Assembly: GCF_026151205.1 (NCBI RefSeq)
Contig: NC_087084.1
Coordinates: 7,799,394-7,863,393, forward strand
DNA: 64,000 nt
Source of the DNA: Bolinopsis microptera
Lineage: Eukaryota > Ctenophora > Tentaculata > Lobata > Bolinopsidae
Direction: 5' to 3'
Below are positions 1-38,700 of the stretch, piece by piece. The translations under genes and the position numbers were made by a program. The number at the start of each line of letters is the position of its first letter. Position 1 is the stretch's first letter. Below the pieces are notes generated by a model. That model ran no database searches. It saw only the letters and a list, made by a program, of their open reading frames with translations, and was not told the origin of the DNA.

Positions 1-73
1 TTAATAATAAGCTAGACGGTAGAAATGCTCGCCATTCAACATCAAATTTGTTCTAAATTATTTATCAGTATAC

Positions 74-3923: not shown

Positions 3924-5262
3924 TATCACATTGCAAAATTGCAAAAAGTTTGATGTTCAAATTCTGATCACAGTTATAAAAGTTATTTGCTATATGTTTA
4001 AAGAAATAGTGAATTAAAAGATTCGATAAACACGCGCATAAAATGTAAAGCAAAGCAACACTCAACAGCACGCTAACAACACACAGAGAAGAAACAATTA
4101 ACACTACACGGCGCTAGCCCTGTGGGGGGTCTCCATAGCAGCGATCATTTCATCTAGTGTCTAACCTGTACTAATATCAACCTCCTCAAGCTAACAGCAA
4201 CGGTGTTCGGTCCTTCGTGTTCAGTGTTCCTCCAATAAGATGCTTACAATTTTTTTAAGTTTAATATCCGGTTCCGGTTCCGGTCCGGTTTCCAAAAATT
4301 TTGCCGAATATTCAACGGGGAAATTTCTGTTTTAAAGGTTCCTGAAATGTATATATTTGTTTAAATTCTTGCTAAGGAGCTAAGGGGCATCCAGTTAGTG
4401 CTCTCAGTGACCAGTGAATTCCACGGTCGCTTGTTATCTGACAGCGAATGTTATAGAGTTATAGAGTTATAGCCCCGTTCATGCGAGATGATGTGTAACA
4501 CAGAGAGTCAAAACAGCTGCCATTTATGCTTTATTTATGAGCATTTCAAGAAGAGGGTTCCTGCTTTATTGTGGTTAGCAAACCCGTCGCTAACTCCCCT
4601 TATAACTTTATAATGTCAAGGATCGAAACAAAGTCCATTATGCCATTCAAAACTTTGGACATTATACTCGGTTATGCCGACGCCACAAACTTATGAGAGC
4701 TGGATTTTGGAATTTAGTTATAGAAAAGAATTTGTATATTTGTGCTAGGTAAAGCGCAGTAAATTCTTGTAATGTGAGTTTTGGTTTTATTCCAACTCGT
4801 TTCTAGCTCTACTCATACAGTGAATCAATCAGTGACCTCTGCACTGCTCGCACAGCAGATCAACCAGTGACCTCTGCTCGCAGTTAGTCGGATTGTAAGC
4901 ACTTTCTTAGTGTGTCCACATGGCTTTTAATATTATGATTGATAAAAACCCACAATTAAGGATTAATATCACTTTTCTGGAAATTTCCAGCTGCCTTAAA
5001 TTTCCTCTTCTTACTTTCTTATTATCCGGTTCCGGTCTGTCAAAATGCGGCAAACTAGAACTGGAATATCCGGTCGTTTCCGGTTTGGCAGCCAAAAACT
5101 TAAACTGTTCAGTCCCATCGTCACAGGTACAAAAGAAAATCGCGATTATTTTCCCCAAAAATCGCGATTCCGCGATTTTTAACAGACTATACAGTATACA
5201 TAAGAAGTGATAAGACAAATTCATGCTAGCATATCTGAGCATTACTAATTATGACTCCCTGT
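3924..5262. other. Gene-free stretch with short repeats
   Basis: No convincing exon was found. It contains CCGG-rich iterations (GGTTCCGGTTCCGGTCCGG at about 4269 and similar sequence at 5025-5090) related to 61565-61675. There is also a triplicated GAGTTATA unit near 4455 and a twofold repeat of CAGTGACCTCTGC near 4830-4880. Confidence 0.4.
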
Positions 5263-5876
5263 TTATGACAATTCATGACTCGATTCACTTATTTGGGTGC
5301 CAAAATTACATCAGATGGCAAGATTGATAAAGAAATAAATGTCAGGATTGGGAAAGCAACCGGAGCTTTTAACCAACTCAACAACATTTGGAAGAATAAG
5401 AACATAAGCATTAACAACAAAGTGCAAATCTACATCGCAGCTGTTCTTACCATTCTGACCTATGGATGTGAGATATGGAACACGACTCAAGTGCAGACAA
5501 GAAGATTGGAGTCTTTCCATCAGTACTGCTTAAGAAGAATCCTGAGAGTGAGGTGGTTCCATCGAGTAAGTACTAAGTAATGAGGATGTTTTAAGAAGAG
5601 CATCAATAACTGCAAAACGGCTGCGTTGGTTTGGACATGTCAGTAGAATGCCTGAAGATCGGTTACCCAGCTATTTACTTGAATGGAAACCCAAGCATGG
5701 GAACTGGGAAGAGATCAAGAGGCAGGCCTAGGAAGAGCTTGAATGATGTATTTATTGAGGATGCTGAGCAGAGATTGGATCGGAATGGACTCACGATTGA
5801 TTGTATGATAAGATTAGCTGCAGACCGAAAGGGATGGAGAAATGTTACCCGCCGAAGTTGTATAATAAGATAATAC
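5263..5876 (+). pseudogene. RTE-type LINE reverse transcriptase fragment (C-terminal part)
   Basis: Translation reads TYLGAKITSDGKIDKEIN, then LTYGCEIWNTTQVQTRRLES, FHQYCLRRILRVRW, then RLRWFGHVSRMPEDRLP and finally GKRSRGRPRKS with RLAADRKGWRNVTRRS. This order is characteristic of the region after the RT domain in RTE/BovB-like non-LTR elements. The reading frame shifts near 5575 and again near 5700, and the endonuclease and RT core are missing. It is therefore a 5'-truncated, dead copy. It belongs to a different LINE clade from the minus-strand LINEs elsewhere in the window. Confidence 0.85.
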
Positions 5877-6044
5877 AAAGTAATGACGCAGTCGACGCAG
5901 ACTAATCCTTTTGGATGGAGATCTCGCCATGTAACATGTATGTATGTTCATGACATAAAATCCCTGTAGTATAACACAGTACTGTATTTACAGCAGACCT
6001 ACACCATGCAAAATGTTTTATCCATTTACTCACGCGGGGTTCTT

Positions 6045-6236
6045 CTATCCAATTTCTACAAAGTCCTTGAACCAGTTGGGTCTCCCGAAACGAGTTTTTG
6101 CCCCGGGAAGGGTGGTGATAGCATCCTCCTCATTGTCCGTGTTCATTGCTACGTTCTCCATCATATTCGTGTCGTTGTTGAAACGAGTCAGATGAGGTCG
6201 TACCTCCAGATACTGACTACGTTCCAGCTCTTTTAG
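6045..6236 (-). CDS. Terminal exon of an unidentified host gene
   Basis: On the minus strand a good acceptor (TTTGATTTTGACAG) is followed by 63 open codons. They begin LKELERSQYLEVRPHLTRF and end TRFGRPNWFKDFVEIG before a TAG. The composition is balanced and acidic in the middle (NTDNEEDA), unlike random AT-rich sequence. The frame starts in phase 0. Upstream exons should lie above 6236, where the intron has received a repeat and a LINE (6300-8116); I could not find them. The family is not recognised, and no signal peptide or membrane segment is visible in this exon. Confidence 0.5.
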   Translation of the reverse strand, partial: LKELERSQYLEVRPHLTRFNNDTNMMENVAMNTDNEEDAITTLPGAKTRFGRPNWFKDFVEIG

Positions 6237-6299
6237 CTGTCAAAATCAAATAGAGCACTGTTAGAATACTCAACTACTGACTACATATTACAATATATA

Positions 6300-6668
6300 G
6301 ATAGATATACTTCACCACAATTTGTTGTAAAACAGTGGCTCCAGAAAACCCACTTCCCGATACTCCTGAAACTTGAAAACTTGTTTGAAGTTTTGAAAAA
6401 TGTTTCAGATCTCTAACTCAATTTTAACGTGGTTTTTAAGGCATCTGAATATGGCGATTTTGGGTTTTTTACCGAATTTCGTATATAACAGTGCTGGCGC
6501 GTATTTTGAGCAAATTTTCTTAAAAGCCCCCACATAACTATTTATTATTCCTGTCATCTTTGAAATTGGATTAGAATGTTTTAAACTTAAGATATGCCTG
6601 CTGAACTTCTTTCGGTGAGTCTTAATGCCTGAAAACAGTAAAAGGGGTATAATAGTATAGGGGGTAAA
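6300..6668 (+). repeat. Dispersed 430-bp repeat, copy 2, interrupted by a LINE
   Basis: Matches 3494-3923 from CTTCACCACAATTTGTTGTA up to AGTATAGGGGGTAAA, with many more substitutions than copies 1 and 3. It is cut at GGGGGTAAA by the LINE at 6669-8116, and sequence like the rest of the repeat resumes at 8117 (GGGGGTAAATAGTAT). Confidence 0.75.
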
Positions 6669-8116
6669 CAGGAATTAAACAGGAATTAAACATGAAATTA
6701 CCAAGGAGAACACTAACGAACTCGTTTTGGCTATACATCAATTCGTAAATACGTTCAGATATAAAACAAAAGTCGAATACAATTGTGGAAATAAAATCTT
6801 AAAATTTAAATGCGTTACAATATCACGAAGTGAAAATAAAATCAAATATAATAATTTAAATGCTAATAAAAAATTCTGGATGTGTGCATGAAGGCAAGAC
6901 CAAGGAGATAGGTTAGACTTAGAGACTACGAAAAGTTGATTGGACGATGAAGGATATGAGTAGGGGACGTGAAGCGAGGATTAGGACTTATTCTTAGGAT
7001 TTCGAAGGTTTGAAGAGTCTGTTAGGCATTTCCCGAATTCTTTTGTGTGACAAGAGTTCATTATGATCCTATACTCTTTTAGCATTACAAGGCTTTTCAG
7101 GTTATCAGAAAGCTTTGAGCGGAGGGAGTGGTATCCAGGGCATTCGGTTATGACATGGTCCTCAGTTTCTAGGATAGGTGTTTCAAAGAAAGGTAGCTCT
7201 TCGAAAAAGCGAATGACGTCTGTGTCAGGAGAGCAGCAAAAACGACACGTTTTCAATGCTGTGTTGTATCGATCACTAGTATATCGACCTTTCTCTACCC
7301 TCAGATCATGACTGCTAGAGCGAAGTTTAGCAATGTTAGCTCTCTTAAGCCTGCACGGAATCTGTAAGTACTGTTCTTCACCAAACTCAGATTTGACCGC
7401 AGTGTAGAACTAGAATGACATCTTCGGCTGGTTGTGAAGATCCTTTCTCCAGTGGTTCACAAATGTTTCGTGTATGTGCTCACGTGCTGCAAGAGCGGGG
7501 TGTAAGTTTGGTTTAGCGGAGGTGCTCATCTTGATGATAGTGGACCAAGTGTCATACCAGGTAAGGTTCAGTTGTTTCTGCTCCTGAAATGTATGGTGCA
7601 GAAGTGTGTTCAATTTACCTACTACCGCTTGTGATGCTCTATAGAAGTAGGCAATACATTGAGGGAGGACGGTCACTGTCCAGGGGGTTCTTCCTGTGTC
7701 GCCGTAACAGAAGTTGTTATTTGCCTTTTTGTGGACACCCAATATCCATTTAAGAATTTTTAGGTGAGTAGATTCGAGAGCATCTTTTGCTGCTGCTTTG
7801 GGGAGACTCACTTCTTGGTTTTTTGAGAGAATGGCTTTCGCGATGTTGGTTGATGGCAGCCAAACAGGGCATCCGTATGTAGCTGCTGGTTTGACTAAGC
7901 TATCGATGAGTTTTAGCATCGTGCTAGTGGAGAGTGCTCTCGTGTCAATAATTCGTCTCATAGAGAAGAACGAGCGTAGAGCTTTTTTCCTAAGCTCATC
8001 GATTGCTTGTTTGAAGGAACCGTTCAGAGAGAATTGGATTCCAAGGTAGCAGTATTTTCTTACTGGTGCGATGTCCAAGTTTCCTAGTTTAAAGCCGTAA
8101 GCACATTTGAGTATTC
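6669..8116 (-). mobile_element. 5'-truncated APE-type LINE, copy 1, with target-site duplication
   Basis: The minus strand encodes the last part of an ORF2. At 8116-7410 it covers the post-RT region (KYCYLGIQFSLNGSFKQAID, then SLVKPAATYGCPVWLPSTN). At 7256-6981 it covers the C-terminal cysteine/histidine knuckle (CRFCCSPDTD, then HVITECPGYHSLRS). A short indel between them breaks the frame near 7410. The 3' end carries tandem copies of GTTTAATTCCT. The insertion is bracketed by GGGGGTAAA at 6660-6668 and 8117-8125, a 9-bp duplication. It is closely related to the element at 34652-38700. Confidence 0.9.
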
Positions 8117-12302: not shown

Positions 12303-13428
12303 CCCATATAGTATAGTTGTGTCTCAACTATACTGCCGTTCCCTGAGAAAAGGCAGTAAGTCACATCGATGCCATTTTGAGAAAATGGGACAAACGTGTT
12401 TGTCGTTTTTTAGGTAATATTATTCGTATAAACGGGGTTAATTTTGACATCTATGTGTGAATAAATCATTGTCATATGTCCTAAACATGCTTAAAAGCAT
12501 AAATTCACCAACACTGATCTATAAAAACCATTTTTCTTCAGAATAACTGAACTATTTTCCCATCCGCATTGGACTTACTGCCTTTTCTGAGGGAATCGCG
12601 GACTTACTGCCTTTTATTAGGATCGATGTCAACCGATTCCTCTCTAGAAAGGCAGTAAGTCCATTTTTCCTCAGATAAATTCAACACAAAAATACAACAT
12701 TTCTATATTTTTGATCATATCCTTGCAATATAATTATGTGGGCCTCCTGTGCATTGCAAGTGTGTAATATTGACGAAAAATGGATAATTTCTCGCTCAGA
12801 ATGCATATAACTCCTTAAATATCGAATATTTTGGAATAATTTTTAGAGCATCGTATTTAGCTTGGTCAGACGCATTAATTTGGAAAAAAAAACATTTGAA
12901 CATACAATATTTAAAGCACCAAATTTTTCAAAAAATGTTTCAATAATTCACACAAGGGGGGACCCTTGTGTTCAGGTTCAAAAATTTTGAAAATAATATT
13001 TTTTTAAATTTTGAATTATTAGTACCCAAATTTTTTGCTTGCTGAGCTGATTACGACCACATAAAAATTATTTCGATATAACTAAAACTGTGGAAGTTAT
13101 AGTCCAAAAACTATAAAAAATGCAAATAAATCTGGACTTACTGCCTTTTCTCAGGGAAAAAGTTCCCTCACGGAAAAAGTTCCCTCAGAGAAGGCTGTAC
13201 AAATGGACTTACTGCCTTTTCTCAGGGAAAGTTTTGGGATTACGTGCCAAATTGTCAAGTTATGTGTGACTTACTGCCTTTCGTGACAGCTAAAACAGTA
13301 TTTTTATAACGTGATTCATAGCTTATGTTGTAGAGAATCTTCTCCTGAAAATTTTGGTACCAATATCTCAAAATTTCGAAAAATGGACTTACTGCCTTCT
13401 CTCAGGGAACGGCAGTATACTATATGGG
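12303..13428. mobile_element. Unclassified inverted-repeat element with iterated sub-terminal motif
   Basis: It begins CCCATATAGTATA and ends with its reverse complement. Just inside both ends is TACTGCCGTTCCCTGAGA followed by AGGCAGTAAGTC. A core motif, GGACTTACTGCCTTTTCTCA, or its complement, recurs at about 12345, 12573, 12601, 12649, 13133, 13205, 13266 and 13384. No open frame longer than about 60 codons lies inside, so it is non-autonomous. The left end carries an extra 13-bp insertion (GTTGTGTCTCAAC). A target duplication is not evident. It sits at the end of the endonuclease fossil. Confidence 0.75.
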
Positions 13429-14232
13429 CAAAGAAGTTCCACATGGAATTAGAGTGAAATAGAACAACAGCAATTAGGCATATCTCGTGAGCAGGGCTCT
13501 CCCACCCCACACTTCTAGTTCTACTATTTTCACTGTCTCACTTAATGTACCAGTTCGTTTGCTTTTTGTTTTTAGAGCTTTAGAGAGAAATCCAAATACC
13601 ACTCGTCCTTAAGGGCAATACATTTGGTTCACGATAAAAGTTGTTACAAACCTTTTGGTTACCATAAATTTCGCACATTTTTAGTTTACATCAATTTTAG
13701 TCACATTTTTTGACTTTTCGAGACCATTTTCAATTCTATTTATCTGATTTTTCCATTATCTATCTAGTTTAAAAAATGAAAACTATCTAAATAATCTAGA
13801 TGTAGATACTACCTGATGGGAAAAGGAAGTAAGAGAATGTGAAAACATAAAAGCATTGGATTAAACATGTAACAGTTAAAGTAGTTCAGCAGTAGGAAAG
13901 GTGATGTCATTATAATAATTATAAACAATGTAAACTAAATAACATTTATGTCATATATTATGCTCTACTGAAAGTTTAGTCTGCTTTTAAATTAGTCGCC
14001 GAAAAATATAGTCTCAATAGATTTGGTTTACAACAAAAGTTTGATTAAATCTTTGGTAGAATAACTTTGAGGGCGGTTTCAGGTGTCGTTAGATCTGTGA
14101 TCATTATAAAACTTGCGATATTAATTATTTTGTTGAAACTTGGTAAACCAGAGACTTTTCCATAAACGGTATTTAAACAAATTTCCAATAACCTTTAAAT
14201 CTCATATTAATTAACATATCATCTATGCAGCT
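13429..14232. other. Upstream region of the receptor gene
   Basis: No coding exon was recognised. The region is AT-rich and should hold the promoter and 5' UTR of the receptor starting at 14233. The phrase AAACTTGGT(A/G)AA next to TAATTATT/TAATATTA occurs at about 14120 and 14230, suggesting a small local duplication. No clear TATA box can be assigned. Confidence 0.4.
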
Positions 14233-17200
14233 ATGAAACTTTTAATATTACTGATCCTGTTGAAACTTGGTGAATCAGATACATCCTTGTCACCACAGAT
14301 TACTAGAAGCTCACACATTGCAGACGCTGATCGGCCTGAAGGTAATTATTACTTATATCATAACGCGTAAAAATTAAAATCGACTACATCAGTTTAAAGA
14401 TAGTAATTTTTGGTTTAAGTAAATTATGAATAAAGACCTTATATTAGCTTATCGCACATCGCTCATGAAAACACTTTTCAGAAAAAACGTGCACTTTCCA
14501 AGAAGAAAGTGGATTCTTGAGACAGGTATGTCTGTGGAATGACAGGAGGCTCTATAAGTGTCACAACACAGAGGAGTATTATCAGAGTTACGGTACTGTA
14601 AGGTCAGCTTTATGTTCAGATGATCCACACTACTATCAGGTATGTGGTTATTACAAGAGCACTGTAACAAATCGCAACCTTCTTTGTGGAGGATTTCTGT
14701 GTAAGGGACCGAGGGGCAGCATCGTGAACTCATTAGATTTTAGTAGATTTATTTGTAATGGAGAAAATGACTGTACTAATACAGAATTAGATGAGGAAGG
14801 ATGCAGCGAACTGATAACTATGCCGAGTGGGGAAAAGATAGCGTTCAATCTAATCTGTAATGATGATTGTGAGACAAGATCCTGTGAGGACGAGGCTACC
14901 TGTAACGGATACAGATACCGTATATATTGTGAGGTTTTTTATATACCAAGAATAATACACTGCTTAACACCAGCCTCTATATGTGATGGATATAAAAACT
15001 GTGTTAACGGAGAGGACGAAGCTAACTGTACCGTTACTAATGAAACACAGTACACTTGTGAACATTCCAGGACTAAACTTACAGTACCAGTACACAACTT
15101 TACAAGATGTACAGTACTGTTAAACCATTTCAACACGTACTGCAGTGATTATTCTGCATATCAGACAAACTGTTCAGATCCCGCCAGAGTAGGGGTAAGA
15201 TGTCTTGTTAACGGATACTTGTCCTCTGTATCAAAATATATGATCTGCTCCGGTAGAAAGGCAATATGTGACGATAACTTTGAGAACCAGTGCATAACAA
15301 CTTCTAGTCAGTGTAATGTTCACAGGCACTTAATGTGTGATGGTCAACCAGACTGCAATGATAAAAGTGATGAAACTGATCATATCTGCATCACCATGAC
15401 AGTGGTAAAGTGTGAAAGACGTGTCGGCCAGAATGGGGAACTCCCAATACCTCTAGCTTGGGTAAGAGATGGGTTTAAGGACTGTTTGAGTGGAATCGAC
15501 GAAGATGACAGTTGGCCTACTTGTGGGAGCACCAAATCTTTAAGATATGTTATCAGCAAAGACACGTCGTGTGAAAATGTGTACCTTTGTCCATGGGGTG
15601 ATCCTGGATATGTGGAATTTAGTGAACTATGCGATGGAGTTGAAACATGTGGAAATGAAAATAAGATCTGCTCTGAGTCCCGCAAACAACTAAAACTGTC
15701 CACAACTGTTTTATCAACTGACAAAAGCCTGGTAAAGCATTTATCATACTGCATAAAGGGGATAAAAAACACTCAAAACTTCAAAAATCATTGCTTCACC
15801 ATCAGTACGTTTATATTTTCAAATGAAAACGTTTACGGAGGAACCAAAACAACGGTTTTAATGCCACATTTTACTCAAAATTGTGACCACATGTTTGGAG
15901 AACAATATTTTTACACTAGTTGTGCAGGAAAGTGTATCAGCTCTTCCTGTCCACTGAAAAATATTCCTAGATATGAGGCGTGTCCAGGACAATATCATAA
16001 AAGAATAGGGACGATAGCCAATAACGAATTCCTAACATTTGTCACAAAATCATATGGAAATATTTATACGAATAGATATTTCGTCTGTGACAATAATATC
16101 ACCTGCATTGATTATTCCCAAGTATGTAATCTCATCAATGATTGTGGGGATGGTTCGGATGAGGACAGCTGCACAAATAACTTCAAATGTAACGGTAGCT
16201 ACATACCAGTGACGAAGAAATGTGACGGATCATTTGACTGCCTGGATTTGACAGACGAATGCAATGACCAGTGCTCAAGACAACTTCTAGAAGGGAATGC
16301 TCTCAAATGGTCATCGTGGGTTATAGGATTTCTAGCCGTCATGGCAAATCTTATCATCCTGTCCAAAAATGCTGGAACTTTGAAGAAATGTAGAACTACC
16401 GTAGCTCTGTTTAATAAGTCCCTTATCATGATGATATCTTTTGGAGACCTTTTAGTTGGTATCTACTTATTGGTCATATCAATTTATGATGGCATAATCT
16501 TCAAGGAAGAATATTGTACCCAACAGATCGGATGGATTACCAGCATCCAATGTTCAACTATTGGAGTTCTAAGCACCATAGGATCGCAAGTCTCGCTTTT
16601 TGCTATGTGTGCATTGAGCCTCACCCGAATTTACGGAATACACAACTCCATGAGAATTCCGGGAGAAGTTACCTTAGTAAAATCACTACAAGTTGCAGGA
16701 GGTGTTTTAATGATGACGTTGGCGTCCATTGTCATTGCTGTAATCCCAATTATCTCCAAATTTGAGGATTTTTTTGTTAACGGAGTGAAGTATGCAGAAG
16801 AGATAAAGGTATTTATTGGAACAATGAACAAGCAGACACTATTTGCCGTCTTTCAGGGATACTTTGGTAGAATGAAGGAAAGAACACTTAGCTGGCGCAT
16901 GATCAACAAAATGATGTACGAGATGTATTCTCATGATAATGGTTATCAAGACTACACAAAAAACATTGAAAAGGTAGATTTCTTTGGAAACGATGGAGTT
17001 TGCCTCTTCAAATATTTTGTCAAAGAAAATGATCCACAGAGGCACTTGGTATGGGCAATTCTTGCCCTGAACTTTGTGTGCTTCTTTTTCATTACAGCCT
17101 CATACTTGATCATTAGCATCATATCTTGCAAATCTTCTAAATGTTTGACACAGTCAGGAGGGAACCAACAGATTTCACAACGCAATAGGAAAATGAACTA

Positions 17201-17570
17201 AAGAATCGCCAACATTATCACTACCGATTTCCTTTGCTGGGTACCTTTCATAGTGATCTGTGTACTACATTCCCTTGAAGTTCTTGATGCAACACCCTGG
17301 TATGGCCTGTTTTCAATGATTATTCTACCGATAAACTCAGTCATAAACCCACTTATCTATGATGACACTGTAACGAACCTTATTAGCGTACCTGCTCAAA
17401 GACTCGAAACCCTAATCACTGGTTCAAGAATTTACCGAGAGTTAAGGCTAAGATTACAACGATCATCACCAGTTGAGACCATTGAGATGAATTGTGTGGC
17501 AGTACAAGACGGTGAAGTTCCAGGTACAGCAGAGATGACTGAAATACGAGACAAACAAAGAAATGATTAG
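14233..17570 (+). CDS. LDLa-module 7TM receptor (GRL101/LGR-like) interrupted by one in-frame stop
   Basis: The first exon 14233-14341 encodes a signal peptide (MKLLILLILLKLGES). A phase-1 intron leads to the second exon at 14482, running to TAG at 17568-17570. The ectodomain of about 600 residues is cysteine-rich with LDL-receptor class A modules: CDGYKNCVNGEDEANC, CDGQPDCNDKSDETDHIC, CNLINDCGDGSDEDSC and CDGSFDCLDLTDEC. From about residue 646 seven membrane segments follow: TM1 WVIGFLAVMANLIIL, TM2 with GDLLVGIYLL, TM3 ending ALSLTRIYG, TM6 DFLCWVPFIVICVL and TM7 with NSVINPLIYD. Such receptors are plasma-membrane, G-protein-coupled and of the relaxin/GRL101 group; this one lacks leucine-rich repeats. 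TAA at 17199-17201 falls in frame between KMN and RIANII, in loop 3. TM6, TM7 and the tail stay open after it. The copy may be a young pseudogene or null allele, or the base may be a sequencing error. Confidence 0.88.
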
Positions 17571-17850
17571 CTGAGACAAAGAAGGAAGCTTATGACGGCA
17601 TTTTGGGAGACAAAGCAGCATAAAAACGATCAAGTTAAATGAATTGTCTTGCAACATCCGATATTATGGACTTGAAGAATATGCTGCACAAGCAGATGAG
17701 TGATGGAAGAAGAGAAGAAGAGACAAAGAAAATATGACATTTGATAAAATTCATAAGGGGAGTCACTTTAAGTTTAACAGAACTACCTTGTCAACGTGAA
17801 AATTAGCTTTGAAAATTTGTTTTATTACTTATTGTAAAATCATTGATCGC

Positions 17851-17856
17851 AATAAA
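17851..17856 (+). terminator. Polyadenylation signal of the receptor gene
   Basis: AATAAA lies about 280 bp downstream of the receptor's TAG in otherwise non-coding AT-rich sequence. Just after it a 220-bp repeat begins (17873). Confidence 0.5.
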
Positions 17857-17872
17857 GTTGATTTTGAATAAG

Positions 17873-18090
17873 ATATTACTAGACACTAGTATCGTTATTT
17901 TTTAATAAAACCAACAAAAAATTACTTTTAAACGAAGGGGAAAAAAGAAAACAAAAAAAGAGAAAATCTTTTCGTCTGTATAACGGACAATTTATACATT
18001 TGGTATTGATTATAATGCTATGTTATTTTAGAATAATTGGCACATTTATTGAATAATTGAATTATACTGATATTTTAGTATTTAGTATTT
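17873..18090 (+). repeat. Direct repeat of about 220 bp, copy 1
   Basis: Starts ATATTACTAGACACTAGTAT and recurs at 19254-19472 with several small indels. It abuts the receptor's 3' end, so the second copy may be a local duplication of downstream sequence. TG...CA ends were not seen, so it is not a typical LTR pair. Confidence 0.75.
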
Positions 18091-18120
18091 GATTTTGAAT
18101 AAGATATACTTGTTATAACC

Positions 18121-18123
<3 letters not shown>

Positions 18124-18151
<28 letters not shown>
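18124..18151 (+). repeat. Homopolymer run of 28 cytosines
   Basis: An uninterrupted C run; the other strand is G28, which can form G-quadruplexes. Its exact length is likely variable and error-prone in assembly. Confidence 0.9.
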
Positions 18152-19253
18152 TCGTTAATCATCAGCCTAATGCCAAAAAACTGTTTACGGATTAAAACAA
18201 AAGATAACTGGCGAAATTTTTGTTTCAAAACAAGTTTTCCAAAAACTACTCGTAACCAGAAATATTTACAACTGGGTTAACTTAAATTATTATCGAATGA
18301 AATGGCGAATTTGCGTTGTCGCAATCTTATTACTGTATCAACCAAGGTTAACCGCGCCAGCAACACCAAACCACTGTGGACCCTTCTCTCTCACTTAACT
18401 CCCTAATGTCAACTCTCCGTGTCAACTCTCCAATTCCAGCATCGCAGATGGACTCCTGGCGGAGCAATCTGGGAGACCACCCGAGGATGGCGAACTTCTG
18501 GTCACCTCACTTCGACTTTTTCAACTCCGATTCCGGCCACTCGACCTCCTGTTCCTGCACTGACCCTCCCGAGTCCCTCCAGATCTCGTCTTCTTGGCGA
18601 CTGATAGACGAGATCAGACTCATCTTCGGAATTGCAAAAGGATGCCGACTCATTGAGCTGTAGATGGCGAATGCAGATCAATCTAGAACGAGCACGTCAA
18701 CTCTCACACCCAACTTGTCCTAGGTCGGTTAACTCGGTCGATACTTATATATTCTATTGTACTATAACATGATACTCGATACTATTTACCTTGATGGTCA
18801 GACGTTCTGCTGGTCTTTTTACGAACTGTCATTAATCGTTTACACTACAAACCGCTAAAACTACTATACTCCGAATCTTCAAAGCTATGATTGAAAGTTG
18901 AGCCGTAACAATTACCAGGAGTGTTGATTGTTGAATGCAACAAGTAAATTTGAATCCTTGACACAGAATGCCGTATTTAATTACGAACTTAACTCGTACA
19001 GTTTCAGAGGGATACAAGTTCTTGGCGAATAAGAGTACCACCACACTGGTGGGGACTATCGATCCCAAAGACCCTCACGCTAGTCATCATTAGAGCGCTC
19101 TAGCTACTAGTAGTTAGGCAGCAAGTCATTAAACTTGTAGTCGGCACTATATACCAGGCGTAGTTAGATCCTATACTGGTTCTGATAGGATGGAGCCCTA
19201 TAAATTGCGTAGACCTAGTGACTAGCTCGTAGGTACTCCTACCGGAAGTTCCT
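18152..19253. other. No supported gene; one GC-richer open stretch
   Basis: Positions 18370-18660 are clearly GC-richer than the surroundings and stay open in two plus frames (for example MSTLRVNSPIPASQMDSWRS). I recognise no family or splice sites, so this may be a decayed transposon ORF or an orphan exon. Confidence 0.35.
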
Positions 19254-19472
19254 ATATTACTAGACACTAGTATCGTTATTATTTAATAAAACCAACAAAA
19301 ATAAAGAATAAATACTTTTAAAAGAAGGGGGAAAAAAGGAAAAAAAAAAGAAAGAAGAAAATCTTATCGTCTGCATAACGGAAAATGTATACATCTGAAT
19401 TAAAGTATTGATTATAATGCTATGTTATTTTAGAATAATTGGAACAATTATTTAATCATGAATTATGCTGAT
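19254..19472 (+). repeat. Direct repeat of about 220 bp, copy 2
   Basis: Second copy of 17873-18090, with A-rich indels in the middle (GGGGGAAAAAAGG region). Confidence 0.75.
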
Positions 19473-20641
19473 AGTATTTAGAGCATTAATAAAAAAATAC
19501 AACTTTTAACTATTGCTTACATTAATCTAATAATATGGAAGCTATCGACTAGCACGTTAGATTGGTTAAACAATAAAAATTACAATTGTGCAGTGGTGAC
19601 TGGTGAGAACAGTTCAGATTATCATTGAGTAATTGGGCTCCAATATCAACGTGGATAAGTGCTAACCCCACACTTTGTGATGCTTTGTCAAGCCCTGGTA
19701 TAGAATTCATTTCAATTTCATGTTAACGATCCGATGATCAGGGCATATTAAAGCTTTTCAGCTAGAAGTGTTCTTGAACAAACTCTTCATATTATAAATC
19801 TAGGATGTGGACTAGATACACCCGGTTAAGACAGTAAGACGTTTCCATCTCATTACACAATCTATATTAAAAATCTCAATAAATGTGTATGTGCGTGTGT
19901 AATTTACAAACAGAAAACGGAACGGGGCTGATTTATTTTCGGTATAGTGCCGACAAAACTCTGAAGGTGCCTAATTTGAGCTTAAGTTTTTTAATTGGAG
20001 GTGGTAAGTGCCAAGTGGTTAATTTATTGATTTTATGACCCAAATGTGATACTAAAGTGTCTCACGTTCTCTCCCTCCCTCCCACTCTCGCGTGTTTTCG
20101 AATAAGTGGCATTATACTTTTGTATTTTAACGGCGATAATGAAGTCATGACCGTAGGCCTGGGTTACACTAGAGCACTAGTACTCAATAAATCTAATAGA
20201 CTTGAAGTGATGCTATTAGTTTATGTTATAGGAGTGGTGCCACCTTGGAAGTAGAGACCCGACCTTATCCATGAATACTGGATAGTTTCACGGTTACATA
20301 CAACATATTTTAAACTGATTTCACAACTATAATTAAATACATTTATTGAGGACGTTACAGAAGGAATTAATTTGATGTAGTCCTAACTCTCCTCACGTCC
20401 GAAAATGGCGTTTCTCTTGTATCAAATATAAGTGCGGTACAATTTTGCGAATAGTGAGATTCCGCCGCACCTGCCTGAATTTACTTTATGTGCAAAGAGT
20501 GCGGCAAACTTGGCCAATATTGGGATTTGATAGGCGATAGCAGGATTAGTTTAAAAATTGCGCGGAAAAGTTGTTTAATTAAACAGGCTATCGTCGGACG
20601 GTTATCCATGCACTTATTCAATTCAGTTTCCGCAATCCCAG
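19473..20641. other. Gene-free stretch before the membrane-protein exon
   Basis: No exon with both a good frame and splice signals was found. A short ACATTTATTGAG sequence at 20340 is shared with 30450 and 39630. Confidence 0.35.
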
Positions 20642-20968
20642 GTGATAGTTGCTTTACTGAATGTGGCTAGTTTTGGAGGGATGTTTGCACAGGATTATCT
20701 TGCGGTAATTGTTACAAGCAACTTCGTCGTAAAGTTCTTGTTTGGGATCGGTGCTATATCTATTGGTTATATTCTCTATGACGTAGATTACTTCGGAGCG
20801 GAGAGGTTTGCCCTGGGCTCCAGTGTTGCACTTGCTGTGGGCTTGGTGGGTGGTGCAGTTGGACCGGCCATGGTGGCCTTTGCACTGTTTCTCCCTGTTA
20901 TCATCACTACGTTAGTGCTCAGTGATCTCCAGATTATGGTGGTTCTCTCAATGACTGAGGTTCGTTAG
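20642..20968 (+). CDS. Exon of an unidentified multi-pass membrane protein
   Basis: An acceptor-like CGCAATCCCAG at 20631-20641 opens an uninterrupted frame of 108 codons, VIVALLNVASFGGMFAQDYL onward. It has three or four hydrophobic segments: VVKFLFGIGAISIGYILYDV, VALAVGLVGGAVGPAMVAFA and LFLPVIITTLVL. The frame stops at TAG 20966-20968, but a possible donor (GAG|GTTCGT at 20959/20960) means coding could continue elsewhere. The glycine- and small-residue-rich helices suggest a transporter or channel-like protein, but I do not recognise the family. Flanking exons were not found; a repeat begins 120 bp downstream. Confidence 0.5.
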   Translation: MIVALLNVASFGGMFAQDYLAVIVTSNFVVKFLFGIGAISIGYILYDVDYFGAERFALGSSVALAVGLVGGAVGPAMVAFALFLPVIITTLVLSDLQIMVVLSMTEVR

Positions 20969-21085
20969 ATACCAAGAGGGGGATGTAAAATTCATTTTTC
21001 ATAAACGCAGTCACTCCAACACCCTGAATGATGTCAATATCAGCTATAAAGTGCTTGTCACTATATAGTCCTGTCACTATATAAG

Positions 21086-21519
21086 ATATATATACTTCAC
21101 GACAATCTGTTGTAAAACAGGGGTTCCAGAAAACCCACTTGCCGATACTGCTGAAACATGAAATTTTGTTTACAGTCGATTTGGACAAGGTCTAGACGCC
21201 CTGCAAAGTTTCAGATCTCTTACTCAATTTTAACATGGTTTTTAAGGCACCTGAATATGGCGATTTTGGGTTTTTTACCTAATTTCGTATAACATGCTGG
21301 CGCGTATTTTGCGAAAATTTCTTTAAAACCTCCATATAACTATTTCTTATTCCTGTCATCTTTAACATTGAATTAGAATGTTTTGAACTTAAATATACCT
21401 GCTGAACTACTTTCGATGAGTCTTAATGCCTGGAAAACAATAAATGGGATATAATAGTATAGGGGGTAAATAGTATTGTGAATATAAGGGCGACGGTAAT
21501 GCTTGCCAGCATTGTGATC
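21086..21519 (+). repeat. Dispersed 430-bp repeat, copy 3
   Basis: Nearly identical to 3494-3923 over its whole length, including the end GCTTGCCAGCATTGTGAT. It is preceded by TATAGTCCTGTCACTATATA (21064-21083), which also occurs at about 30330. Confidence 0.85.
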
Positions 21520-22868
21520 AATTTTGAGGGATAAGGAATTGTTTATATGTTCTGAAACCTAGTTAAATCGATTTTTCGTGCAATTTCTGATCAGAAACAG
21601 TCATCAAAATGAGTTAATAAAAAGGTCGATTTCTCGGTAAATTTTGAGTTTTCGTTCAAATAAATATTTTGCTAAGAAGTAAGAACTTAAAAACGCGCAT
21701 ATTCAATCCTCGCGCGAATAAATCATAAGGAGGCGAATATATTGCTAAGAAAACGTAGATGTAACTCTCGCGCAAATTAATTATAAGGAGGCGAATATTT
21801 TGCTAACAATGCGAAGATTTCATTCTCGTGTAAACAAACTAAAAAGGAGCGTGCAACGCGCGTCAGACCGTTATTAGGCAAATATTTTTTAAAGAATTCG
21901 AGTAAAATCGATTGAAATATCACGAAGTTTTAAGTTTAGAGAGAAACTGGATCATTTGCATATCCATGATTGACGAATTAGTTATTTTACTGTTTACAAA
22001 CATAACTTAGGTAATTCACTTGACGGATGTTACTCGTCTAAATTTCTTCGAAGTAGCGCGCGCCGCTTTCTTCTCGATGGCAAGTGCTACGAAGTAGCGC
22101 GCGCCGGGCCAGATCATTAACAATGGTCAAGTAATTCACAAGAAGTTTTCTTCGAGTTTGACAAAATATATTTTTCAATATATTTCCCTGGTGGACTTCA
22201 GTGCGTGTTCAGAAGGTAGTTGACTTTAGTTCGGGTCAACTTACGGTCATATCACGTGATCGATGTTAGTAGTACCTGTTCGATCATTGAAGGTGAGGAT
22301 TGCCTCGATCTTTCGGTCTCATCTTAAGTTCAACTCCGTAGGTCATGATTAGGGCTGTAAAACCAATTTAAATCGATTTCTCGTGCAACGTTGTACAGGT
22401 GAGGAACAGTCACAAAAATGAATTGCTTACCTGCTGTGTTTTGTCGTACTCTGCTCTCCGATCAAGTTCGATCAGTTGAGGTGAGGATTGCCTCGATCTT
22501 ACGGTTTCAGCCCTAGGTCAAGAGCTGTAGAACCGAAGGATCAATACAATATACCTACATGTTGGCGTTGCTTGTTGCTCGTATTAACTATAAAACATAA
22601 GTTTTGAGGAATAAGGATTTGTTTATAGGTTCTGAAACCTAGTTAAATCGATTTTTTGTGCAATTTTAGGTCAGAAACAGTCATCAAAATAGATTAATTA
22701 GACGGTCAATCTCTCGGTAAATTTTGAGCTTTCGTTCAGATAAATATTTTGCTAAGAACTGCGCGAACATAAAAAACACAAATTGAATCCTCTCGCAAAT
22801 AAATTATAAGGTGGCGAATATTTCCCTAAGGAAGCGAAGATTTATTTGCGTCGCGCAAATAATTATAA
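21520..22868 (+). repeat. Compound repeat with 58-bp-type minisatellite units
   Basis: Two diverged direct copies of a leader (21521-21680 and 22602-22745, with CTGAAACCTAGTTAAATCGA) are each followed by units of the AAGGAGGCGAATATTTTGCT minisatellite. Between them, 21950-22262 matches 28250-28430 in the same direction apart from the insertion at 22020-22130. No gene was found. Confidence 0.75.
22020..22130. mobile_element. MITE-like element with TTGAC...GTCAA ends, copy 2
   Basis: A 111-bp relative of 10956-11090. GTAATTCAC flanks it on both sides (22011-22019, 22131-22139), and the paralogous site near 28298 has GTAATTCAC once with no insertion. This directly shows the element's ends and a 9-bp duplication. 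Confidence 0.9.
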
Positions 22869-23350
22869 CACCCTACGCGCGTGGGGTGGACTCCTGGGGT
22901 GGACTTTTATTCAGCGCGTATTTTGTAGCCTGTTCAACTTGACGTTTTGAATCGTTACTATCTCAATGTCACAGATACACAGAATGTGAGGTGATCATCT
23001 TAAAGAGAAACGTCTCAGCTTTCACCTGGTGTAAAGTTTATCTTTGTTCTCAAAATATAGCTCGCTCAGTGTGCAACAGAAGTTGACATTACAATAACCA
23101 CGTCCGCGACCGGTCGTCAGATACCGGAGTCTTGCACAAAATTGGGTCCCTAAATTAAAATTTTATGACACAGTTACGATGAACTAGTGTCTAGGGAAAC
23201 ATTTGGTGAAAATTTGAAGGGTCTACTGTTAATATTGCAAAAGTTATTGAAAACAAACTAGCTTAGTCAGAAGTTTTTGGGAAAATTTCAAATTTTGTAC
23301 GTAGTGGGGTCTACTAGACTGGGGTGGACTCTCGTGACGCGCATCTGATG
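22869..23350 (+). repeat. Repeat with a 342-bp inverted partner at 27724-28065
   Basis: Starts CACCCTACGCGCGTGGGGTG. Positions 22869-23210 are almost exactly the reverse complement of 27724-28065. It continues to about 23350, where GGGGTGGACT, present twice at the start, recurs (23318-23327). No open frame. The two copies bracket the ankyrin-type gene in opposite orientation. Confidence 0.85.
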
Positions 23351-23781
23351 GCGTGGCTTTTTCAACAGCAGTCAGTACGGCCAATATCAGAGCACGAATT
23401 ATTGTGAGTAAGACCTTAATGGTCAGCTATGAACCCCTCACTAGAATAGTAACCGTATCTAAAAACAAGGAAATGTTATTCCGTCAAAGCTCAAATTTTT
23501 TACTCTTCTCAGCTCAGTGCAGTTACTATGAATGTACTAGCTAAGTATCGTTGATCGTAGCTGCATTACACAGTAGAAGGTAACCAAGGAAGACTGCTGA
23601 TTAACGAAGCAATTTCAACGTGAACAGTTCCAAAATACATAATCATGGCGACGATAGTTCAACTTGAACCTTTATAGTTTTTACAGTCTAAGATCACAAT
23701 AAAATCACGTGAACTGCGAATCACAAAATCAAATCACTCAAATCTGATACAGTCCCGTTACAGTACGCTTTCGTGACAACC
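23351..23781. other. Region downstream of the ankyrin-type gene
   Basis: No exon recognised. It should contain the 3' UTR of the minus-strand gene ending at 23782. Confidence 0.4.
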
Positions 23782-26788
<3,007 letters not shown>

Positions 26789-32565: not shown

Positions 32566-34640
32566 ACTGGAATTAAACTGGAATTAAACTGGAATTAAAC
32601 TTAAATAGTCAGAGGGAACACTAACGAACCCGTCGTGACAATACATCAATGAAATAAATAACATAATTATAAAAAAATCATAAATAAGACCCAAAACACG
32701 TAAAAAAATTAACTTCAAGACAATCTGTACGAAAAGGAAACAAGATCAAATATAATAATTTAACCGGATTAAAGTGGGTAATGCACCGATAAGGTAATAA
32801 ATTATGCAGGAGAGGTTCATAAAATTCACAAAGTTACTCCAAAAGTCGAAAATACACTATCAAGAAAGATTACACACAAACTCAAAGACGGGCGTAAGTT
32901 ATGCAACTGTAACTCCGAATGAAAACAGTTCGAACACTCATTAAAGGGACACTGGGGTAGTTAGAATGTCCTTAAGACAGTGACTCGGAATCATTACCGG
33001 ATGTGTTAGATCAAGTGGAAGACGATGTTGGTGTCTTTTTCGGATTTCTGATGCGATGACAGCTGCTGAGAAACTTGCCCAGTTCTTCTATGTGGGCTGA
33101 ATTCATCATGTCTTTGTAGTTCCTGAGAAGTAAAAGCCCTTTGAGGTCATCTGAGAGAGAAGATCGTACTGAGTGGTACATGGGGCACTCAGTAAGGCAG
33201 TGTTCCTCGTCTTCAATAATCGTGCCTTCAAAGAAGGGAAGGTATTCGAAGCCGAGAACGTGATCCCTATCGCAGCAGAATCTGCATGCTCTTGGCCAGA
33301 CTCCGGCCTCCTTCGTGTAACGCCCTCGTTCTATCATCAGGTCGTGGCTGCTGGAGCGGATTTTAGCTGTATTCGTTCGGAATTGCCTGCTCTTCAGATT
33401 GAGGTACTGCTCTTCTCCAAATTCCTCCTTGATTTGGTTGTAGAACTGCATCTTGGTTTGCGATCCCAGGTCCACCCTCCAGTCACTGATAAAGACATCC
33501 CTCATGGTGCCATGAGCTGCTTCTGTTTCATAATGAGCCACAGAGCTAAGTTTCTCGTACCAGGAGAGGTTAAGATTTTTCTGTTCCTGAAACGCTTGAG
33601 ATACTAAAAAATTGACACTGTTCATCTCAGAAGAAGCTCTGGAAAGTCTTCCAAAGTATCTGAGGCATTGTGGCAGAACTGAGAGGGCCCAGGGCATCCT
33701 TCCTGTATCCCCGTAACAGAAGTTGTTGTTAGTTTTCTTGTGCACACCCAGTACCCATTTCAGCATTTTGAGGTGTGTTGTCTCAAGACTGTCTTTTGCT
33801 GCAACTTTTGATAGGTTGTGTCTTTGGCTGGGTTCACGCGCCATTTCTTTCATGAGGTGAGTCGAGGGTAGCCATATCTGACAGGCGTAAGTTGCTACCG
33901 GTTTCACCAGACAGTCAATTAGCTTTAGCATGGTTTTGGTGGTCAGAGCTCTGGTGTCTACCATGCGTTTTATCGAAAAGAATGCTCGAAGCGCCTTCTT
34001 CCTCAGTTCGTTCATGGCGCATTTAAAAGATCCATTGAGGCTGAGCTGGATACCTAGATAGCAGTAGGACCTTGTTGGAGAGATGTCGAGCTGTCCAAGC
34101 TTGAACCCGTACGAGCAGTTTAGCACCCGCGAGCTTGAGTTGAAGACCATTATTTTAGTCTTATCAATGTTGATAGATAGCTCCCATTTGCTTGCAAATT
34201 CATTTAGGCAGTCAAGCTCTTTTTGAAGGCTTTGGTGGTCGAGAGCTAAAAGGATGAAATCGTCGGCCCAGAGCAGGTGGTTGACTGGGAAGCCATTAAG
34301 TTCAGGGACAGAGAGATCCTCTAGGGCTGCTAGATAGATGGAGAGGTCGTAGATGTATATTTTAAACAATTCAGGAGACATTGGATGCCCTTGCTCTGTT
34401 CCAATGGTGACATCAATGGTCTCCGATAGTTTTTGGATCAGTTTGATGCGGGTCACCGAGTTGCTGTACATGTTCTTAAGGCAAGCGAAGAAGTTCCCTC
34501 CGATACCAAAGTGATTGAGTTTATACATGAGTGCTTCTCTGCACACCGTATCGAACGCTTTCCGGTAGTCAACAAAACAAGCAAACACTCTCTTTTTGAG
34601 CTTTTTCGTGTATTTCTCAATGATTGTGGTAATTGACGTA
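32566..34640 (-). mobile_element. 5'-truncated APE-type LINE, copy 2
   Basis: The minus strand holds an open ORF2 fragment 34588-33011 (525 codons, plus a short open lead-in to about 34636). It begins inside the RT domain at FACFVDYRKAFDTV, with IGTEQGHPMSPELFKIYI and HLLWADDFILLAL (active-site aspartates in ADD). It ends with the knuckle CRFCCDRDH...HCLTECPMYHS and a TGA. The 3' end at 32566-32602 is a run of AGTTTAATTCC units. Endonuclease and early RT are missing, so the copy is dead although its frame is open. It abuts the 3' tail of copy 3. A clear target duplication was not resolved (TGACGTA occurs at both ends). Confidence 0.9.
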
Positions 34641-34651
34641 TAATTAGTGAT

Positions 34652-37600
34652 AAACTGGAATTAAACTGGAATTAAACTGGAATTAAACTTGAAATTACCA
34701 AGGAGAACACTAACGGACTCGTTTTGGCTATACATCAATTCATAAATAAGTTCATATATAAAACAAAAGCCGAATAAAAGTATGAAAATAAAATCTTAAA
34801 ATTTAACCGCGTTACAATATCACGAAGTGGAAATAAAATCAAATATAATAATTTAAATGCTAATAGAAATTCTGGATGTGTGCATAAAAGCAAGTCCAAG
34901 GAGATATGTTAAACTACATAAGGTGATGGGACGTTGAAGGAGATGAGTAGGGGACGTGAAGCGAGGATTAGGACTTAATCATAGGATTTCGAAGGTTTGA
35001 AGAGTCTGTTAGGTGGTGATTGCTAGGACTTCATAGGAGGTGATAACTAGGACTTCTTTTCAGGAGGATGTCGAAGGTGAAAGGATTCTGTGAGGTACTT
35101 TCCAAATTCAGTAGCATGGAATGAGTTCACGATGGCCCCATATTCTTTGAGCATTATGAGGCTTTTAAGGTTGTCTGAGAGGTTGGACCGGAGGGAGTTG
35201 TAGCTGGGGCATTCATTTATAACGTGGTCCTCGGTTTCAAGGATAGGTGTTTCAAAGAATGGTAGTTCTTCGAGGAACCGCATGACGTCGGTGTCTGAGG
35301 AGCAGCAAAAGCGACATGTTTTCAGTGCTGTGTTGTAGCGATCTCCAGTGTAGCGACCTTTCTCAATTCTCAGATCGTGACTGCTAGATCGAAGTTTTGC
35401 AATGTTAGCTCTTTTGACCCTGCATGGGAGCTGTAACTCTGTAAGTACAGTTCTTCACCAAACTCAGCTTTGACCGCAGTGTAGAATGACATTTTAGGCT
35501 GGTTGTGAAGATCCTTCTTCCAGTGGTTGACAAATGTTTCGTGTATGTGTTCACGAGCCGCAAGGGTGTGGGGTAGGTGTGGCTTAGCGACAGTGCTCGT
35601 CTTGATGATAGTAGACCATGCATCATACCAGGTAAGGTTCAGTTGTTTCTGTTCCTGAAATGTATGGTGCAAGAGGGTGTTCACGTTACCTACAACCGCT
35701 TGTGATGCTCTACAGAAGTAGGCAATACATTGAGGGAGGACGGTTACTGTCCAGGGGGTTCTACCTGTATCTCCGTAGCAGAAGTTGTTATTTGCCTTTT
35801 TGTGGACACCCAATATCCATTTAAGAATTTTCAAGTGAGTAGTTTCAAGAGCATCTTTTGCTGCTGCTTTGGGAAGACTCGCTTCTTGATTTTTTGAGAG
35901 GATGGCTTTCACGATGTTGGTTGATGGCAGCCAAATAGGGCATCCATATGTGGCCACTGGCTTGACTAAGCTATCAATGAGTTTTAGCATCGTGCTAGTG
36001 GTAAGGGCTCTCGTGTCAATAGTTCGTCTCAGAGAGAAGAATGAGCGAAGAGCTTTCTTCCTAAGTTCATCGATTGCTTGCTTGAAGGAACCGTTCAGGG
36101 AGAACTGGATTCCTAGATAGCAGTATTTTCTGACGGGTGCGATGTCCAAGTTGCCTAGTTTGAAGCCGTAAGCACATTTCAGTATTCGTGAGCTTGTGTT
36201 AAAGACCATCACGCTGGTTTTGTTGATATTCACAGACAGCTCCCACTTTTCAGCATAGTCATGCAAGCAATTGAGCAGTTTCTGTAAGCTGCCCGCATCC
36301 AGCGCTAAGAGTACCAGGTCATCTGCCCATAGGAGGTGACTTACTTTTACACTGTTTAATAAAGGTACATCCAATTCCTCGATTTGTTCAAGTCTGATCG
36401 AGAGCTCGTGGATATAGAGTTTGAAGAGCTCGGGAGACATTGGGTGTCCTTGTTCTGTGCCGATGGTGACGTCAATGGCTGCGGATAGCTTTTGAATCAG
36501 CTTGACTCGGGTTGAAGAGTTCTTGTACATGTGGCTGATGCAGTCGAAGAATTTGCCTGTTATGCCCATGTTTCCCAGCTTGAACAGGAGTGCTTCCCTG
36601 CATACGCTATCGAAAGCCTTGCGGTAGTCGACAAAGCAGGCGAAAAGTCGCTTCTTCTCTTTCTTGGTGTATTTCTCAATAATGGTATTCAAGGTGAGTA
36701 AGTGGTCGTTACATTGGGCTCCCCTCCTGAATCCAAGTTGATACGGTCGGTCCGGACAGGCTGTTTCTCTAAATTCGATCAGCCGTTTAAGGAGAAGGTT
36801 CGAGAAGAGTTTGCCGAGACAGCTCCCAATAGTAATAGCCCGATAGTTATCAGGGTTTTGCCGGTCACCCTTTTTATGGAGGGGAGTTGTGATCGAGTTG
36901 TTCCAGGGGTAAGTTCCATGCTGGAGGCAGGCATTAAAGAGTTTTACCACGACGAGTTGAAGTGTCTCATTGGAGTTTTTCAACATCTCGTTCGATATCA
37001 GGTCATCGGACACACTCTTATTGTTTTGGAGTTTTTTAGTCGCATCTTTGATCTCCTGTAAGGTAAAGTCGCGATTCAGTTCATTGACCAATTCCTTGAT
37101 AGGCTGCGAATCGTTGGACGTAGGAGTAGAAGTGCCATCATCCTTGGAGTGATTGTTCACGCCACACTTTCGATTGTGGAGATCATTGAAGAATTTGTGA
37201 AAGAGGAGAAGATCGTAGATGTCGAAGGGTTCCTCATCTTTGTACTGATCAGATAGCCGTTTGAGCGCTGCCCAGTTAACCTCACCACATTCGTTTATCT
37301 TCTGGTTCATCTCGTACAGAAATTTCCCCTTTTTCGTCCTCTTGATTTTTCGGTACTCCTTTTTTCTGAGAAAGTGCTGGTCACGAAGGAAGTTGCTGTG
37401 TGGGTTACTGTTGGCATTTCTGTCAGCTCTGTTGGCTTCCCTTTTAGCATGTTTGCAGCTTTGGTCAAACCATTTTTTCTTGCTGGTGCGTTTGCCGCTT
37501 TTGGTCGTAGTAACCGAATTCGCAAGATTGTGGGATGTTGCGACTACGTCTTCATTAAGCTGTGCAGCTTCGTTTGCCGTATTCACTGGTTGATTAAGGA

Positions 37601-38700
37601 GGCAGTCCATTTTGTCTTTGAATGGCTGATCACTCTGTGCTAGCCGGAATTTAGTTGCTGTATCGGCAGAGAGGTTCTCTGATCTGTTCCATTTAAAAGA
37701 TTTAGGAGCATCTTGGATATCTGGTGATTCAAGACTGGTAGAAATCCTTCTTGAAGGATTTGTGGATATTGACATAGATAGCGCCCTGTGATCGGAGTAT
37801 TGAGAGATGCTCTCAATTTTCAGGTGGCGGACTCTGTCGTGAAGACTCGTTGAGACGCAAATGTAATCAACTGTGCTGACGCCATGGCGCTGAATACAAG
37901 TGGGTTCACCGAATATATCACCGAGAGTTCTACCATTGAGGATGACTAGGCCTGTCGTTTGGAGGAGTTCAATGAAGGGTCGCCCATTCGTGTTTAGCTT
38001 AGGGTCTGAGTTATTGCGTTTAGCCAACTGTTTAAAGAAATGGGGGTCGATCTCGGTGTCTTTCATTTGACTATGGTCAGACAACATGTCGTCCAGGGTG
38101 CCAGTTCTAGCATTGAAATCCCCGAGAAGGATGACATCCTCGTTGAGCGGTACACCCGCCAAGAATTCTTGAAGATACTCTAGAGTTGTCATACTGTCTT
38201 CAGTTTCTAGACCTTTTCTTCGCTTCTTGAAGGATCCATTAGTGGGTGAGTCATAGACGTTGATAAGATAGGTGTTTCGGTCTATGTCGAAGTAGTTAGC
38301 TTTCAGTTTAACTACAACGATATCTTCCGTGGAGTTCATACGAACATTGGTTACACCGGCTTTTAAGCTTTTGTGTACTCCTATACATACCCCTCCTGAA
38401 TTTGATCCCTTCCTGTTAGAATTAAAGCAACAGTAGTTACTTATGTTGATCTCCCCTTTTGTTTCTTGCAGAGCAAAAATATCGTGGTTGTCGAAGAGCT
38501 CACGAATTTCGGGAATGTCAACCTTGGCTCCTTCAACTTTGTCCCGAGAGTGGTTGATATTCCAGCACAGGAACTTAAGGGAGTGGCGGGACCTCGTTTG
38601 TGTGGGTTTAGTCATTGCTAAACCTGTTGGTGCTGCGTCTTGTAGTTGTTTCATCATTGTCGTGGTAGCTTATTCGGGGGAGGCGCAGGGTCTTCCTCAG
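34652..38700 (-). mobile_element. Nearly full-length APE-type LINE, copy 3
   Basis: Extends from the AGTTTAATTCC tandem tail at 34652-34690 through the 3' UTR and the C-terminal knuckle (35283-35047: HVINECPSYNSLRSN) to the ORF2 start near 38657. The exact 5' end is not determined. Shares its 3' UTR with copies 1 and 2 (TTAGTGTTCTCCTTGG on the element strand). Confidence 0.85.
35370..38657 (-). CDS. LINE ORF2: AP-endonuclease and reverse transcriptase
   Basis: 1095 codons. Residues about 28-300 form an AP-type endonuclease: FLCWNINHSRDKVEG, LQETKGE, LLGDFNARTG and YSDHRALSMSI supply the catalytic N, E, D and H positions. The RT domain follows: PLHKKGDRQNPDNYRAITI, FACFVDYRKAFDSVC, IGTEQGHPMSPELFKLYI and LLWADDLVLLALD. 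Then comes the thumb/post-RT region (YCYLGIQFSLNGSFKQAIDE). The enzyme nicks DNA and primes reverse transcription at the nick (target-primed mechanism). Near 35440 a short duplication around TTACAGAGTTACAG shifts the frame, so the knuckle CRFCCSSDTD...HVINEC lies in another frame (35320-35047). The element is therefore probably inactive as it stands. The clade (CR1/L2/Rex-like group) is not settled. Confidence 0.9.
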   Translation of the reverse strand: MMKQLQDAAPTGLAMTKPTQTRSRHSLKFLCWNINHSRDKVEGAKVDIPEIRELFDNHDIFALQETKGEINISNYCCFNSNRKGSNSGGVCIGVHKSLKAGVTNVRMNSTEDIVVVKLKANYFDIDRNTYLINVYDSPTNGSFKKRRKGLETEDSMTTLEYLQEFLAGVPLNEDVILLGDFNARTGTLDDMLSDHSQMKDTEIDPHFFKQLAKRNNSDPKLNTNGRPFIELLQTTGLVILNGRTLGDIFGEPTCIQRHGVSTVDYICVSTSLHDRVRHLKIESISQYSDHRALSMSISTNPSRRISTSLESPDIQDAPKSFKWNRSENLSADTATKFRLAQSDQPFKDKMDCLLNQPVNTANEAAQLNEDVVATSHNLANSVTTTKSGKRTSKKKWFDQSCKHAKREANRADRNANSNPHSNFLRDQHFLRKKEYRKIKRTKKGKFLYEMNQKINECGEVNWAALKRLSDQYKDEEPFDIYDLLLFHKFFNDLHNRKCGVNNHSKDDGTSTPTSNDSQPIKELVNELNRDFTLQEIKDATKKLQNNKSVSDDLISNEMLKNSNETLQLVVVKLFNACLQHGTYPWNNSITTPLHKKGDRQNPDNYRAITIGSCLGKLFSNLLLKRLIEFRETACPDRPYQLGFRRGAQCNDHLLTLNTIIEKYTKKEKKRLFACFVDYRKAFDSVCREALLFKLGNMGITGKFFDCISHMYKNSSTRVKLIQKLSAAIDVTIGTEQGHPMSPELFKLYIHELSIRLEQIEELDVPLLNSVKVSHLLWADDLVLLALDAGSLQKLLNCLHDYAEKWELSVNINKTSVMVFNTSSRILKCAYGFKLGNLDIAPVRKYCYLGIQFSLNGSFKQAIDELRKKALRSFFSLRRTIDTRALTTSTMLKLIDSLVKPVATYGCPIWLPSTNIVKAILSKNQEASLPKAAAKDALETTHLKILKWILGVHKKANNNFCYGDTGRTPWTVTVLPQCIAYFCRASQAVVGNVNTLLHHTFQEQKQLNLTWYDAWSTIIKTSTVAKPHLPHTLAAREHIHETFVNHWKKDLHNQPKMSFYTAVKAEFGEELYLQSYSSHAGSKELTLQNFDLAVTI

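Follow-up and report, generated by a model that had tools for sequence, protein, structure and literature searches.

A private in-frame stop codon, probably a recent null, in one copy of a large LDLa-7TM receptor family of the comb jelly Bolinopsis microptera

Introduction

LGR-type class A GPCRs, including RXFP1, FSHR, LHCGR and TSHR, resemble the gene described here in their 7TM domain (FSHR, E = 9.8e-14; RXFP1, E = 2.7e-12, with X at the stop). The GRL101-like receptors of snails, including the SudRes2 cluster of Biomphalaria sudanica, combine LDLa with an LGR-type 7TM domain and are clustered, and excerpts of the study (PMC12297450) describe orthologs truncated in one genome or other as well as a nonsense variant in an adjacent non-receptor gene. 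In Aplysia, according to excerpts of PMC2700072, the chemoreceptor "flatliner" genes belong to large families whose members, even where disrupted in one genome, may be represented by intact alleles in other individuals, and a transcribed chemoreceptor copy with a premature stop has been reported. For ctenophores, excerpts of PMC13231562 describe GPCR clades of Mnemiopsis that radiated independently in this group, with copy-number differences and an "accordion" model. A limited search of the literature returned no publication on an LDLa-7TM family in Bolinopsis.

Here we analyzed a 64,000-nucleotide stretch of the Bolinopsis microptera genome (hereafter the window; contig C13, 7799394-7863393), in which an LDLa-7TM receptor gene is interrupted by one stop codon. 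The genome searched for its relatives was the 264,652,675-base assembly, comprising 232 contigs. The GC content of the window, per 2 kb, ranges from 0.33 to 0.46.

Results

The receptor gene lies at 14233-17570 in two exons and is complete apart from a premature TAA (Table 1). A sequence-only reading of the window had called this codon the sole lesion in the receptor frame, and frame reading confirmed the claim: the frame from 14484 contains 2 stops in 1029 codons (17199 and 17568), compared with 76 and 96 in the other forward frames. The intron 1 donor scored above 99% of the GT sites of the window, and the acceptor was middling (70th percentile), by general splice-site tables. Paralog homology reaches upstream to ~14160 in most copies compared. 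In the ectodomain, Pfam identified Ldl_recept_a in five stretches, and VLDLR/LDLR chains also matched. The 7TM part matched FSH, LH, TSH and relaxin receptors, and 7tm_1 (Pfam) scored 40.0 bits over the gene with X at the stop; the presence of an LGR-type 7TM sequence suggests that the gene belongs with the LGR/relaxin-type receptors. A scan of 17200-18300 found no AATAAA motif at 17202-17850.

Table 1. Features of the receptor locus and of its surroundings in the window
Feature	Position	Strand	Content	Basis
Repeat upstream of the gene	12329..13419		young mobile element	34-base inverted ends; 12500-13420 part multi-copy genome-wide, best 99%
Second copy of signal-peptide exon start	14105..14155		127 bases upstream; ATA for ATG	78% similar; paralogs match this stretch too, 84-87%
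Exon 1	14233..14341	+	start codon and signal peptide	ATG, hydrophobic leader, GT donor; joins exon 2 in frame
Intron 1	14342..14481	+	140 bases	GT..AG ends
Exon 2	14482..17570	+	LDLa ectodomain, 7TM domain, cytoplasmic tail	Pfam and receptor-chain matches
Premature TAA	17199..17201	+	third intracellular loop, directly before TM6	in frame with exon 2
Open frame 3' of TAA	17202..17567	+	122 codons; TM6, TM7, tail	homology matches
Original terminal TAG	17568..17570	+		frame reading
AATAAA	17851..17856	+	candidate poly(A) signal	motif scan of 17200-18300
Element in 3' flank	17858..18107		SINE- or MITE-like, or an old flank element	~210 bases between perfect 19-base direct repeats; similar copy at 19254-19481 and in paralog flanks
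Partial non-LTR retrotransposon frame	33011..34660	-	reverse transcriptase	
Longer non-LTR retrotransposon frame	35370..38669	-	reverse transcriptase and endonuclease	

The same reading had placed TM6, TM7 and a tail beyond the TAA in an unbroken frame, and this was borne out by the open codons running to the terminal TAG and by Pfam and RXFP1 homology. An open run of 122 codons has a probability of 0.00045 under an order-1 model of the window, and 29 of the 7529 stop-to-stop runs in the window are that long, including ORFs of genes and repeats. Codon usage by itself says little for the 366-base tail frame: it scores best of the six, but 9% of random stretches of 366 bases reach a score as high. 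Homology argues firmly that the tail is coding: taken alone, it aligns with positions 208-260 of Pfam 7tm_1 at 22.3 bits (E = 1.1e-4), short of the gathering score of 30.5 bits, and with the TM6-TM7 region of relaxin receptor 1 (E = 3.4e-4). In five receptor-structure alignments (two FSHR, one RXFP1 and two LHCGR chains) the TAA stands opposite lysine, unlike the leucine that its own family has at this codon.

In the window, we found no Rfam matches and no tRNAs, and Pfam searches of the frames of 1-7000 and 18000-24500 (the latter on the plus strand only) gave nothing above the gathering score. No relatives were found in bacterial and archaeal genomes or in plasmids, and no retrotransposon relatives in viral contigs.

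The receptor is one member of a large family. A genome search with its last 122 codons gave at least 150 scored matches from 431 candidates, the window itself included, and 5 of the 150 matches listed contain a stop. For exon 2, we identified 17 other copies with 86-94% DNA identity, of which 11 lie on C13, two on C12, and one each on C4, C5, C9 and the unplaced contig C64; seven copies, the window copy among them, form an array on C13 at 7.586-7.883 Mb. Judged on exon 2 only, 10 of these 18 close copies are open over 1023-1147 codons, and eight are broken: the window copy (1 stop), L031 on C64 (8 frameshifting indels), L032 (2 stops near the N-terminus), L037 (a stop and a 7-base insertion), L038 (a stop), L042 (a 1-base insertion), L046 (first 1261 bases absent from the match) and L021/L045 (a 1-base insertion, with ~8.6 kb between the halves). 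The neighbours L037 and L038 have a common in-frame stop at window position 15636 that is absent from L039, the copy nearest to L038, suggesting possible gene conversion among array members. In L039 itself, the first ~630 bases of exon 2 are tandemly doubled, with the frame open over 1147 codons and the outer of the two copies only 77% like the window; this N-terminal doubling is ectodomain shuffling within the family.

To follow the codon across the family, we aligned the window copy with 20 relatives using MAFFT (17 close copies and the more distant L048, L049 and L050). All 17 close copies, together with L048 and L049, have TTA (leucine) at the codon, L050 has TTT within a decayed stretch, and none of the 20 has a stop. 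The exact local form with TAA occurs once in the genome, in the window, and when up to two mismatches were allowed the pattern matched 19 sites, of which 18 have TTA and one, the window, has TAA. The stop is therefore derived and private to the window copy. Origin by a C-to-T change from CAA, as had been proposed from the sequence, is rejected by the uniform TTA of the close paralogs, and the codon changed by T to A, from TTA to TAA. A second T-to-A change private to this copy converts an isoleucine of TM6 to asparagine four codons past the TAA. The 40 copy-specific changes counted without L031 are not clustered (at most 5 in 100 nt, P = 0.63), so that local gene conversion or a burst of errors at the TAA was rejected.

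The nearest relative of the window copy is L031 (support 100 in the tree that includes it). The contig that carries it, C64, is 37.6 kb long and reads TTA at the codon. It is colinear with window positions 13424-18745 at 84-97% identity, but its longer remainder does not match the window in this way, and genome searches with two 7-kb pieces from that remainder gave only weak, repeat-like matches of 63-85%. The ~1.1-kb repeat that ends at ~13419 in the window is absent from C64. On this sequence comparison C64 could be another haplotype or a duplicate; in the first case the TAA would be a segregating allele.

We estimated the age of the lesion from a tree of 17 sequences including L031 (L021, L046, L048 and L050 were left out). 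In an earlier tree that also left out L031, the terminal branch of the window copy was 0.062 substitutions per site with 40 specific changes; adding L031 shortened it to 0.043 with 29 changes and left our confidence in the preferred explanation as it was. These branch lengths may be disturbed by gene conversion between copies. Nonsense changes make up 4.4% of random substitutions in the coding sequence (transition/transversion weight 2), and at an assumed 0.08-0.16 indels per substitution a neutral copy would gather 333-525 disabling lesions per unit divergence, or ~14-23 on the branch of 0.043. Only one was observed, exon 2 having a single premature stop and no frameshift relative to open relatives, indicating that the loss is recent. 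The lack of a second lesion corresponds to less than ~0.006-0.009 substitutions per site since the loss.

Selection was examined on the same branch. The copy-specific changes comprise 18 nonsynonymous, 10 synonymous and 1 stop, a rate ratio of 0.47 that suggests constraint along most of the terminal branch, although 0.47 is not low and 29 changes cannot separate mild relaxation from constraint. Before the TAA there are 16 nonsynonymous and 9 synonymous changes (2004 and 504 sites), and after it 2 and 1, which are too few to show release. Pairwise dN/dS against 14 full-length copies (L030, L032-L044) ranged over 0.35-0.46 for the whole sequence and 0.12-0.21 for the TM part. The comparison with L031 gave 0.82 and 0.52, high values that fit a decayed or error-laden sister.

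Discussion

We consider it very probable that the TAA is a recent nonsense mutation, making this copy a young pseudogene or segregating null in a fast-turning birth-and-death receptor family. A very young pseudogene or null allele had been among the options of the sequence-only reading, and it is supported here by a lesion that is private and stands alone on a branch long enough for many to be expected in a neutral copy; the frequent breakage in the family also counted in its favour. A leucine codon, TTA, would have become TAA in one copy of a large LDLa-7TM (relaxin/glycoprotein-receptor-like) family, and the predicted product would comprise the LDLa ectodomain and the first five helices (TM1-TM5) but be deprived of TM6, TM7 and the tail. 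Because of this loss it should not signal as a GPCR, and the window copy has probably lost its function. Since the TAA is in the last exon, mRNA decay that depends on exon junctions would presumably not operate. The base call comes from one assembly of one individual, and the allele may be fixed or segregating.

An error of consensus or polishing, with a sense codon at 17199 in the animal itself, is unlikely. According to excerpts of PMC10232365, the B. microptera genome was assembled with wtdbg, haplotigs were removed by purging, and pilon was used for polishing with Illumina reads. Short reads would map poorly among near-identical copies, and the 8 frameshifting indels of the sister copy on C64 are as in an ill-polished contig; both points, like the short-read polishing itself, speak for an error. 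However, it would have to be a lone substitution to a letter absent from all paralogs, so it could not have been copied from one, and raw long-read errors would bring frameshifts that exon 2 does not have. We give still less credence to a functional truncation, in which a receptor of five helices, its LDLa ectodomain intact, would serve as a decoy, dominant-negative form or surface anchor. Constraint on the part before the TAA (16 nonsynonymous and 9 synonymous changes) and the lack of an exon junction downstream would suit it, but the same constraint is equally expected of any very young null, the three changes after the TAA (2 nonsynonymous, 1 synonymous) are too few to show release, and no other aligned copy has this shape. 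Just as improbable is a maintained allele, with a decoy or dominant-negative five-helix receptor standing beside intact sisters and both forms held in the population; if true, this would resemble the polymorphism that pathogen-facing receptor families may keep.

The least probable explanation, to which we assign almost no weight, is that readthrough, RNA editing or a short intron restores a full-length receptor. The frame is open past the TAA, and one 51-base GT-AG pair (17153-17203) would keep both the frame and all of TM6. Its acceptor, however, is in the bottom 12% of the AG sites of the window, and among the 9 frame-keeping pairs scored with the general splice-site tables the two best delete part or all of TM6; none is credible, which disposes of the proposed intron. 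RNA folds around and after the TAA do not surpass those of shuffled sequences (z = -0.29 and +0.64), and the window contains no inverted repeat of more than ~30 bases that pairs with the gene. By the usual decoding and editing rules, leucine would not result from UAA readthrough or from A-to-I editing. Because no aligned relative has the stop, recoding would also lack the conservation it would lead one to expect; with no stimulatory fold found, this suggestion was abandoned as well.

A recent null thus remains the preferred explanation, most likely an ordinary recent loss or null allele. The lone lesion matters little, and more interest attaches to the family around it. Ctenophores diverged very early in animal evolution, and this comb jelly has a very large LDLa receptor family with a relaxin-receptor-like 7TM domain and recent copies on several chromosomes. 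Nearly half of the close copies (8 of 18) are broken, and constraint is much weaker outside the membrane than inside.

Several differences separate this family from the systems it resembles. The leucine-rich repeats of known LGR-type receptors were not found here (Pfam, E up to 1); the ectodomain instead consists of LDLa repeats and other cysteine-rich sequence, and the second extracellular loop is long. The GRL101-like receptors carry LRR and C-type lectin domains (excerpts of PMC12297450), neither of which was found in this gene, and the "flatliner" genes of Aplysia represent other GPCR subfamilies with short N-termini (excerpts of PMC2700072). The pattern of family size, breakage and uneven constraint is that of chemosensory or immune receptor turnover.
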